A DNA stretch of 64,000 nt from positions 2,709,001 to 2,773,000 of the forward strand of contig NZ_CP036433.1 in the NCBI RefSeq assembly GCF_007751035.1, in the 5' to 3' direction. The stretch comes from Lignipirellula cremea. GTDB lineage: Bacteria; Planctomycetota; Planctomycetia; Pirellulales; Pirellulaceae. The position numbers and the translations under genes were made by a program. Positions 27,665 to 30,949 of this stretch are shown piece by piece. Position 1 is the first letter of the stretch. The number at the start of each line of letters is the position of its first letter. The notes below the pieces were generated by a model. It was not told the origin of the DNA. It saw nothing but the letters and a program-made list of their open reading frames with translations, and did no database searches.

Positions 27665-30600
27665 TTACGGCCCCAGCCATTCGAGCAGCAGTTGGGAGCC
27701 GTCCCCTTCGCGGGGGTCGGTCCGCCGCAGCAGTTGCTGGTGGCGGTCCCAACGCTGCTGGGCGATTTCGAACCGGTCGTGAAACTCGCTCCGTCCCTCG
27801 GCGTCGGGCAGGAAGAACTGCCGGTTGGCCGCCGGCCCGGCGAACTGCATCCCGGCAACCATCTGGTCGTACTCGGCAATGCTGATCGGCTGGCCCGGTT
27901 CGCCCAGGAACCGGCAGGCGATCGCCAGCGCGGTCGGATCCCGGCGTTCCAGCAGGGCCAGCGCCTGGAACCAGCCTGCCAGCAGGGATCGCACCCGGTC
28001 GGGGTTGTCGGCCAGGTAATCCTCCCGGGCGGTGAGAATATCAATGATCACGCCCGGATCGTCGGCCGCGCTGGCCAGGCGCACGGCGCCCGGCTGGGAC
28101 AGGGCGGCCAGCAGGAACGGCTCGTAACTGACGACCGCATCGGCCTTGCCGGCGACAAACAGGTCGACCGCTTCCTTGGCGGTTTCGGTTTTCAGATGCA
28201 CAAAATCGGCCAGGTCCAGCTGGTGTCGCTCGCACAGTGAGAGCAGCAGAAAGTGCGGCGCCTCGTGATACATATACGCGATTCGCCGGCCGCGGAGATC
28301 GTCGAACGACGTAATCCCCTCTCGCACCACCAGGGCGTCGGCCGTGAGCGACGTATCAAACAGCAGGACCGCCTTGGTCGGAATGCGATCGGAACGGGCC
28401 AGCGCATGAGAGTCGACCAGATACGGCGCCATGTCGAGGGTCTTTCCCAGCAGGCGCTGGCGAACGTCGGTCGTGGTCCGCACCGGCGTGAACTTCAAGT
28501 CGACCCCTTCACACAGACCCATTTCACCCGCCACGACCAGCGGCGAGAACCCGACCCACGGCTTGATGCCGATGTGGATCTCGCGCGAGCGGGGCGTCGG
28601 CCACGGAGTTAACGCTGCCAGCAGTGCAAAGCCCAGGCAGACGATCAGCAGCAGCAAGCCGGGCGCCGCGGGCCGCCGCCGGCAATGCCGCAGGAAGCGG
28701 GTCGCCGCGCCGACAGGACGGGCCGCCACGGGTTGTCCTGCCTGCCAGGCGTCCAGATCGGCCGCCAGTTCGGCCGCCGTGGCGTAACGCTGCTGCGGCT
28801 TTTTCTCCAGGCACTTCTGCACAATCGCCTGCAGGTCGGCGGGCACAGCCCGGTTGTACTTGCGGACCGGTTCCGGCTCTTCGATCTCAATTCGCAGCAT
28901 GGCCCGGGCGTCGCTCAGGTCGCCGTCGATGCCGTAGATCGGCTGCAGGGTGAGCAGTTCCCAGAGCGTGGCGCCCAGGCTGTAGACATCGGTCCGGCCG
29001 TCGACCAGGGCGGAATCAATCAGCTGTTCCGGGCTGGCGTATCGCAAGCTGCCGATAAACTGCCGTGTCCGCGTGACCCGTCCGTCGGCCTCCTGGGTCA
29101 GCTTGGCGATGCCCAGGTCCATCAGCACGGCCCGTTCGCCATCGCGGGCGAGCAGGATGTTATCCGGCTTGATGTCGCGATGCACAACCCCTTCCTCATG
29201 CAACGCCTGGGCGGCCAGGGCGATATCGCGCACCATTGCTGCGACCCGCTGGAAGTAAGCTGGCGACTCATGGAAGCGGGCGCTGGCCGGCTCGCCGGAT
29301 GTCGCCGGTTCGGCGGCGAATCCCGCGCACGACTCCGTTTCCGGCGGGGCGGAGAGGGCCGCTTCCGGCTCAGGCAATGTGGTCAGCGGCAGTTCGGCCG
29401 CACGCTGCTCGTCAGCGGCGAGAGCAACAAAGGCGGCCCAGGCCGCATCGTCAAGCGGGCCGGTCGCGGCGGCCGGCAATTTGCGCAGCAGCTGGTTCAG
29501 GGGGACGCCTTCGATCAATTCCATGGCGTAGAAGAAGCGTTCGCCTTCGCAGCCGGACGTATACACCCGGACAAGGTGGGCGTGCTCGACCCTTCCCAGC
29601 GCGCGGATCTCGGTCGCGAAGCGGGCCTGGGCGGTGCTGTCGTGCTGGTGCAGGCATTTGAGGGCCACCTCCCGTTCGGCCGCCGCCTGCCAGGCCCGAT
29701 AGACGACGCCCATGCCGCCGGATCCCAGCCGCGTCTTCAGCTGAAAGCCGCCCAGCATGACGTCCCGGCCGCGAACCGCATGAAGCGGCGTTGGCAGCGC
29801 GAGCGTCAGCGTCGGTTCAAATGCTTGCCTGGCGAGCGCTTCAGTCGCCGGCAAACGCACCCGCGGCGGCGCGGCAATATAGGCCGGGCGGCTGCGCGGT
29901 TCCTCGCCGGGAACGTTTCGATTCTCCGCCAGCCAGGCATGCAGGTCGTCGGCCAGATCGCCGGCCGTCTGATACCGGGCGGTCAGGTCGCGGGAGAGGG
30001 CCTTGGCGCAAATGCGATCCAACTCCCGCGGCACGGTTCCGTCTTTCTGGCGGACCGAAGGCGGATCGACGCTGGCAACCAGGCTCAACAGGTCCTCAAG
30101 CGATTCGGCCAGGAAAGGACGCTTGCCGGTCAGCAGCTTGAAGAACACCACGCCCAGGCTGTAGATATCGCTGCGGCCGTCGACCTGGCGGCCTTCGCCG
30201 CGGGCCTGTTCGGGACTCATATAGGCAGGCGTCCCCATGAAGCAGGGGCCGCGGCCGATCTCTTCTTCGCGCAGCGCCAGGCCGAAGTCGGCCAGGAAGG
30301 GACGGCCGGCCGCATCGAGCAGAATGTTCGCCGGTTTCACATCGCGGTGGACGATGCCATGCTCGTGCGCATGCTGCAGGGCGTCGGCGATCGCGGCCGT
30401 CAGCGCCACGGCCGAGTCCAGTTCCCAGCGATCTTCGGCCAGCCACTGGTCCAGACTGCGACCGTCGATGTACTGGGACACGACAAAGCAGGAGCCGGCC
30501 TGGTCGGCCTTCGCTTCGTACACCCTGACAATGTGCGGATGATCCAGGCGGGCCGCCATGCGGGCTTCGTTGAGATAGAGCGCGGGGCCGCCGACGGCAT

Positions 30601-30949
30601 CGATTACCGAGGCGTGCGGCGTTTTGATGGCGACCGAACGCTCCAGCCCGTCGTCATAGGCATGGTACACCACGCCATACGCTCCCTGGCCCAGTTCACC
30701 CAGCACCCGATAGCCGCCGATCATCGCCGGCATTTCGCGGAACAGGTCTTTCCCCTGGTCGATCAGCAGCCGTTCGATCTCGCTGCAGCCGCCGACCACG
30801 TCGACCAGTTCGTCCAGGATTCCCTGGCACGCAGCGCAGCGGGCCACATGCGAATCGACCAGGCTGGCTCGCTCGTCGGGTAACTCGGCCTGCAGAAACT
30901 GCCGCAAAACGGTCAGCTGAGGACATTCCAGAACATCTACCGACGGCAT
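27665..30949 (-). CDS. Tandem Ser/Thr protein kinase receptor with extracytoplasmic ABC-type substrate-binding domain
   Basis: The 1094-residue architecture, in order, is: anti-sigma-type zinc motif H34-x3-C38-x2-C41; a Hanks kinase at about 79-345 (GQGAYGVVYHAY, VAIK109, HRDVKPANILL with Asp203, DFG at 221, GTPAYMSPEQ); a second kinase at about 402-735 (GSGGMGVVYRAW, VALK431, HRDIKPDNILL with Asp592, DLG at 611, GSLRYASPEQ); a membrane segment at 763-781; and an NMT1/TauA-like substrate-binding domain from about 790 to the end (IHIGIKPWVGFSPLVVAGEMG, FDDLRGRRIAYM, FVAGKADAVVSYEPF, LTAREDYLADNPDRVRSLL). Both kinases keep their catalytic residues. The second has an Ala/Pro-rich insertion of about 75 residues before its catalytic loop. 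A small-molecule-sensing receptor kinase is the natural inference. AAAGGAT lies just before the ATG. Confidence 0.88.
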   Translation of the reverse strand: MPSVDVLECPQLTVLRQFLQAELPDERASLVDSHVARCAACQGILDELVDVVGGCSEIERLLIDQGKDLFREMPAMIGGYRVLGELGQGAYGVVYHAYDDGLERSVAIKTPHASVIDAVGGPALYLNEARMAARLDHPHIVRVYEAKADQAGSCFVVSQYIDGRSLDQWLAEDRWELDSAVALTAAIADALQHAHEHGIVHRDVKPANILLDAAGRPFLADFGLALREEEIGRGPCFMGTPAYMSPEQARGEGRQVDGRSDIYSLGVVFFKLLTGKRPFLAESLEDLLSLVASVDPPSVRQKDGTVPRELDRICAKALSRDLTARYQTAGDLADDLHAWLAENRNVPGEEPRSRPAYIAAPPRVRLPATEALARQAFEPTLTLALPTPLHAVRGRDVMLGGFQLKTRLGSGGMGVVYRAWQAAAEREVALKCLHQHDSTAQARFATEIRALGRVEHAHLVRVYTSGCEGERFFYAMELIEGVPLNQLLRKLPAAATGPLDDAAWAAFVALAADEQRAAELPLTTLPEPEAALSAPPETESCAGFAAEPATSGEPASARFHESPAYFQRVAAMVRDIALAAQALHEEGVVHRDIKPDNILLARDGERAVLMDLGIAKLTQEADGRVTRTRQFIGSLRYASPEQLIDSALVDGRTDVYSLGATLWELLTLQPIYGIDGDLSDARAMLRIEIEEPEPVRKYNRAVPADLQAIVQKCLEKKPQQRYATAAELAADLDAWQAGQPVAARPVGAATRFLRHCRRRPAAPGLLLLIVCLGFALLAALTPWPTPRSREIHIGIKPWVGFSPLVVAGEMGLCEGVDLKFTPVRTTTDVRQRLLGKTLDMAPYLVDSHALARSDRIPTKAVLLFDTSLTADALVVREGITSFDDLRGRRIAYMYHEAPHFLLLSLCERHQLDLADFVHLKTETAKEAVDLFVAGKADAVVSYEPFLLAALSQPGAVRLASAADDPGVIIDILTAREDYLADNPDRVRSLLAGWFQALALLERRDPTALAIACRFLGEPGQPISIAEYDQMVAGMQFAGPAANRQFFLPDAEGRSEFHDRFEIAQQRWDRHQQLLRRTDPREGDGSQLLLEWLGP

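Follow-up and report, generated by a model that had tools for sequence, protein, structure and literature searches.

A gene on the minus strand of the window (the whole stretch of Lignipirellula cremea DNA analysed here, 64,000 nucleotides) encodes a real, conserved and rare protein that is very probably a ligand-gated receptor kinase. With a probability of roughly 0.7, it is a one-protein receptor whose outer substrate-binding domain (SBP) binds a small molecule and switches two cytoplasmic Ser/Thr kinase domains. The open reading frame starts with ATG, has no internal stop and is laid out as follows.

27665..30949, minus strand: whole ORF, predicted dual-kinase/SBP receptor, 1094 aa (ORF reading and Pfam)
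30827..30925, minus strand: N-terminal zinc-type motif, residues 9-41 (C9, H34, C38, C41), invariant in three orthologues, zf-HC2 below cut-off
29975..30712, minus strand: kinase domain 1, residues 80-325, catalytic set K109/E128/D203/D221
28784..29743, minus strand: kinase domain 2, residues 403-722, catalytic set K431/E447/D592/D611 (DLG)
29270..29476, minus strand: variable insert within kinase 2, residues about 492-560 (alignments)
29066..29077, minus strand: VTRT, residues 625-628, activation loop of kinase 2, matching VTQT in the alignment with PknB (M. tuberculosis)
28610..28666, minus strand: membrane helix, residues 762-780, with arginine-rich N-flank, predicted N-in, C-out (motif script)
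27668..28594, minus strand: extracytoplasmic NMT1/SsuA/TauA-type substrate-binding domain, residues 786-1094 (profiles, model, fold match)

Architecture, conservation and precedents

Pfam searches of the 1094-aa protein placed Pkinase above its cut-off, with its best stretch at residues 80-325, and PK_Tyr_Ser-Thr with its best stretch at 403-722, while NMT1 matched at 802-992 (50.6 bits; cut-off 20.5) and NMT1_2 at 786-1010 (30.7 bits; cut-off 24.7). The HxxxCxxC motif noted in the initial annotation was recovered by a motif script as HVARCAAC at residues 34-41, with a zf-HC2 score of 10.1 bits against a cut-off of 22.2. The one membrane segment proposed there was found as a single hydrophobic stretch at about 762-780, directly preceded by RHCRRR. 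Because this only hydrophobic segment has its arginine-rich stretch on the N-terminal side, the kinases are predicted to be cytoplasmic and the SBP external. In this predicted topology, one chain combines kinase, membrane helix and a domain of the SBP superfamily.

Two further proteins share this layout. An SBP-domain search through the phylum found a 1143-aa open frame in G348, whose translation (P0002) has 1139 aa. In GTDB contigs, a single-sequence query gave no match, and a two-sequence profile recovered a 1054-aa protein from an uncultured Planctomycetaceae bacterium (L071), apparently the same as G463. Over their full length, the two proteins are 54 and 56% identical to that of the window. 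The zinc-type motif, both kinases, one membrane segment with an arginine-rich N-flank and the SBP are present in all three proteins, with both catalytic sets and C9, H34, C38 and C41 invariant. Because so complete a layout, with its catalytic sets, zinc-type residues and membrane segment, is kept at 54–56% identity, the architecture reflects more than chance, and the three intact orthologues rule out a fusion artefact or a pseudogene. The survey across planctomycetes that had been proposed for this architecture thus returned the same design in two others, but no fourth member among roughly 900 different genomes, many of them incomplete and, in the large searches, each represented by its best few scored candidates. 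The sets searched overlap and comprise 60 relatives, 392 genomes from the whole phylum, 170 from the family of G348 and 397 from the window's own order. Three long NMT1_2 frames (L106, L107 and L108) were inspected as candidate fusions and proved to be open-frame extensions upstream of ordinary SBPs.

The design was initially called unusual, and this holds for part of it. Fusions of Ser/Thr kinases with SBPs have been known since 2005; what is new is the NMT1/TauA type of the SBP and a single chain with two intact kinases. In the earlier fusions listed by Krupa and Srinivasan (2005; PMC1262709), a kinase is joined to a solute-binding domain of the Glu/Gln type in Streptomyces coelicolor and to an ANF receptor domain in Nostoc. 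Like the window protein, these combine a Hanks kinase and an SBP-superfamily domain in a proposed sensor, but they have one kinase and SBPs of other families; the window protein has a second kinase and the zinc-type motif, and its SBP is of the NMT1/TauA type. In mycobacteria, GlnH, an SBP with the ligands Asp, Glu and Asn, is proposed to signal to PknG through GlnX, and these ligands agree with the stimulus (PMC6069109). An SBP outside is there linked to a Ser/Thr kinase inside, as proposed for the window protein, although GlnH, GlnX and PknG are three separate proteins and the window receptor would be one chain. Given these earlier kinase–SBP systems, the window protein is a further form of SBP-bearing receptor kinase. 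A survey of planctomycete Ser/Thr kinases describes 307 architectures, mostly with periplasmic WD40 or TPR domains, and its main text makes no mention of NMT1 or of two kinase domains (PMC11032199). In the openly readable literature, we found neither planctomycete receptors with two kinase domains nor NMT1-type kinase sensors.

The substrate-binding domain and the source of the signal

The C-terminal domain was initially described as NMT1/TauA-like, and both profile and structure bear this out. An AF2 model built from a two-sequence alignment reached a pLDDT of 66.7, yet already matched SsuA and TauA; with 20 homologues, pLDDT rose to 95.8 and pTM to 0.92. The best Foldseek matches of the SBP model are TauA, SsuA, pyrimidine-precursor and Thi5 proteins. 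VIA-align gave Z 33.4 against Escherichia coli TauA (rmsd 2.2, 284 of 309 residues), Z 28-30 against SsuA and about 25 against NrtA/CmpA. Since the model matches TauA and SsuA across the domain, the absence of a periplasmic-binding fold is excluded. The likeness to TauA and SsuA is one of fold and length; identity is only 15–18%, and the domain here differs in being tethered to kinases, in having no adjacent transporter genes and in the motif at a helix start. Reuse of an NMT1-family fold as a regulator within a fusion is also seen in the regulatory domain of NrtC/CmpC (Z about 25), which regulates a transporter ATPase without a kinase, whereas the window protein carries kinases.

The best SBP model in NCBIfam was SsuA_fam, with 71.1 bits against a cut-off of 163.5, and the TauA model gave 31.8 bits against 304.25. 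As the SsuA_fam score lies below its cut-off, the domain has the family fold but is not a curated sulfonate binder. The helix-start motif reads E-A-P-H-F in all three orthologues and S-S-S-H-N or S-S-A-H-N in SsuA proteins; this is the place that contacts the anion in SsuA, and its change suggests that the ligand may not be a sulfonate. Sulfonate was set aside as the ligand on these two grounds, despite TauA and SsuA being the nearest folds.

The same change could be taken to mean that the SBP no longer binds any small molecule and has become a dimerisation or protein-docking module, with kinases that respond otherwise or are always on; SBP folds have also turned into enzymes elsewhere (Thi5, MqnD). 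However, E-A-P-H-F and the other pocket-side segments are invariant in three proteins that overall share 54–56% identity, as expected of a pocket that is kept, and we consider such a loss of binding improbable. The SBP segments invariant across the three are KPWVGF, SLTAD, HEAPHFLLL, YEPFL and SAADDPG. There is a still smaller chance that the signal comes from inside, with the kinases controlled by a cytoplasmic partner or by the N-terminal motif, through the state of its thiols or metal, and only modulated by the SBP. The invariance of C9, H34, C38 and C41 would fit this, as would a similar N-terminal motif in another kinase of the same genome (L006), but the zf-HC2 profile stays under its cut-off, and zinc-type motifs such as HxxxCxxC often serve in protein docking.

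The three loci share no neighbours, and neither the ligand nor the regulated process can be read from them: the window gene is flanked by a divergent proB and a downstream hydrolase gene, the G348 gene has an ECF-type sigma gene and a kinase–WD40 gene upstream, both divergent, and the L071 gene is followed by sdhCAB. No riboswitch match was found near the window gene with Rfam. As the initial annotation stated for the window, no permease or ATPase gene adjoins the receptor gene there, and by ORF reading and motif scan of the adjacent genes the same is true of G348 and L071/G463; on this absence of adjacent ABC genes, a transporter subunit was rejected. Apart from the receptor, the NMT1 profile matches in the L. 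cremea genome only an SBP next to a TRAP permease and an SBP–OmpA fusion; no free-standing SBP of this type that would serve an ABC transporter was found there. We give the least credence to a tethered SBP that both senses its ligand and passes it to an ABC permease encoded elsewhere, coordinating uptake and phosphorylation. SBPs do commonly double in transport and signalling (PMC9602780), but adjacent ABC genes occur in none of the three members and the genome's NMT1-profile matches offer no partner SBP of such a transporter.

Two kinase domains in one chain

Both kinase domains are Hanks-type, each with a profile score above cut-off, G-loop, VAxK, alphaC Glu, HRDxKPxN, DxG and SPE. The motif script placed the G-loops at 87 and 409 and VAIK and VALK at 106-109 and 428-431; HRDVKPAN at 201 and DFG at 221 follow in kinase 1, and HRDIKPDN at 590 and DLG at 611 in kinase 2. 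These positions agree with the two complete catalytic sets first reported (Lys109/Asp203/Asp221 and Lys431/Asp592/Asp611). The metal-binding motif of kinase 2 is DLG, not DFG, and between its lobes this domain has some 70 additional residues (about 492-560). PknB/StkP are the closest solved structures for both kinases. The kinase 2 loop R-V-T-R-T-R-Q-F-I-G-S-L-R-Y-A-S-P-E-Q aligns with V-T-Q-T-A-A-V-I-G-T-A-Q-Y-L-S-P-E-Q of PknB, and T626 and T628 within it, the counterparts of the autophosphorylated threonines of PknB, are kept in all three orthologues. Kinase 1 has no PknB-type Thr pair in its activation loop. Kinase 2 thus shares the VTxT activation loop of the PknB/StkP family, but the PASTA repeats of PASTA kinases are absent from the window protein, which scores 440.6 bits, summed over stretches, with the PASTA-kinase equivalog NF033483 (cut-off 450).

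Over their cores, the two kinases are 37% identical, and another kinase of the same genome is closer to kinase 1 (52%), so a recent internal duplication is rejected. Among the 68 open frames with a kinase match in this genome, only two have two separate kinase matches: the window ORF and a 1428-aa frame (L109:2557-6843), whose N-terminus is nuclease-related (NERD-like) and whose first kinase has HRG where HRD is expected. With so few double frames, and one of these altered in its first kinase, a design with two intact kinases is unusual within the genome.

The earlier proposal of a sensor that drives cytoplasmic Ser/Thr phosphorylation remains the best reading, given the fold, the membrane helix, the lack of transporter genes and the coupling of related SBPs to histidine kinases (below); ligand binding, topology, dimerisation and the direction of signalling are inferred. 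In this receptor, the SBP, a few residues from the membrane helix, would bind its small-molecule ligand on the outer side of the cytoplasmic membrane, and its two lobes would close on the ligand, as is usual in the working of SBPs. Closure would rearrange the membrane helices of what is most likely a dimer, thereby switching the two cytoplasmic kinase domains. Kinase 2, which adjoins the membrane and has the PknB-type pair T626 and T628, is the likely regulated kinase, and kinase 1, which lacks the pair, may have kinase 2 as its target or targets of its own.

A relay from kinase 1 to kinase 2 is thinkable from the sequence. In its full form, a single-chain cascade in which ligand closure of the TauA-like domain leads kinase 1 to phosphorylate T626/T628 of kinase 2, in cis or in a dimer, it seems rather unlikely; it would place sensor, upstream kinase and downstream kinase in one polypeptide. 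The two intact kinases with their unlike activation loops nonetheless offer a test of whether bacteria build kinase relays in one chain. The stimulus is known for almost none of the many planctomycete Ser/Thr kinases, of which this genome alone has 68 candidate frames, and identifying kinase stimuli is an outstanding question (PMC6069109). Because a TauA-like domain is soluble, self-folding and easily screened for ligands, the window protein ranks among the more tractable starting points, and a ligand found on the isolated SBP domain would directly identify what stimulates a bacterial Ser/Thr kinase. The receptor is a good experimental subject, while the conceptual step beyond known kinase–SBP fusions is modest.

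Relatives of the substrate-binding domain

The nine best-scoring free-standing SBP relatives (L072, L082, L074, L073, L075, L083, L088, L076, L085) each immediately precede a gene for a membrane kinase; the two frames overlap or are no more than about 50 bases apart. Seven of the nine partners are histidine kinases by Pfam and that of L083 by motif; the partner of L085 is cut by the contig end, with only its membrane part visible. This pairing shows that similar SBPs are already used in signalling. Like the window protein, the planctomycete pairs (L072, L073, L075, L082 and others) combine an NMT1-type SBP and a membrane kinase without transporter genes, but they consist of two genes and histidine kinases, whereas the window protein is one chain with Hanks kinases. 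Several of the paired SBPs are probably tethered as well, judging by their lipoprotein-type N-terminus. Among lower-scoring relatives, L087, L089 and L086 occur with histidine kinases, L084 is without a kinase, and L091, L097, L098 and L090 lie near ABC-ATPase signatures. Annotated relatives from plasmids are ordinary SBPs of ABC transporters, encoded beside hisD, hutH, urea amidolyase-associated and amidohydrolase-type genes, and from such varied neighbours the ligands of the SBP family can be expected to vary widely.

A maximum-likelihood tree unites the three Hanks-fused SBPs in one clade (100/100), within which the window protein groups with L071/G463 (98/86), though G348 and G463 share a family. 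This mismatch suggests that the receptor may have been transferred horizontally or lost patchily. The deep forks stay open, and the place of the Hanks-fused clade among the SBP groups is not settled: a constrained tree uniting it with all histidine-kinase-linked SBPs was not rejected (p-AU 0.17), and one uniting it with transporter SBPs was weakly rejected (p-AU 0.03). Descent from histidine-kinase-linked SBPs is hinted at by the scores, but was not adopted in view of these forks and indecisive tests.

Other arrangements of such SBPs were also seen. SBPs with a C-terminal OmpA domain (L010:1003-2790 and similar frames of about 570–660 aa in L013, L015, L016 and L062) occur once in the L. cremea genome and in many copies across planctomycetes; they score in the range of the histidine-kinase-linked group and form one clade (100/100). 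In two genomes of one genus (L095:4504-8709 and L096:8774-11654), a gene for a Hanks kinase-type membrane protein stands directly before an SBP gene, an unfused pair whose SBPs belong to another NMT1 subclade. Finally, NMT1_2-type SBPs of uncultured planctomycetes, many of them of family f51, contain a single in-frame TGA, found in 17 of 20 selected loci and in L107 (set: L107, L110-L128), always at the same place and in the context PVT-U-HLTCPVTSWVT. It is directly followed by a conserved stem-loop, GGTCACC AGTTG GGTGACC, both arms of which are changed together in L124 (GGTGACC/GGTCACC), and by these features the TGA resembles a selenocysteine codon accompanied by a SECIS element of the bacterial type.
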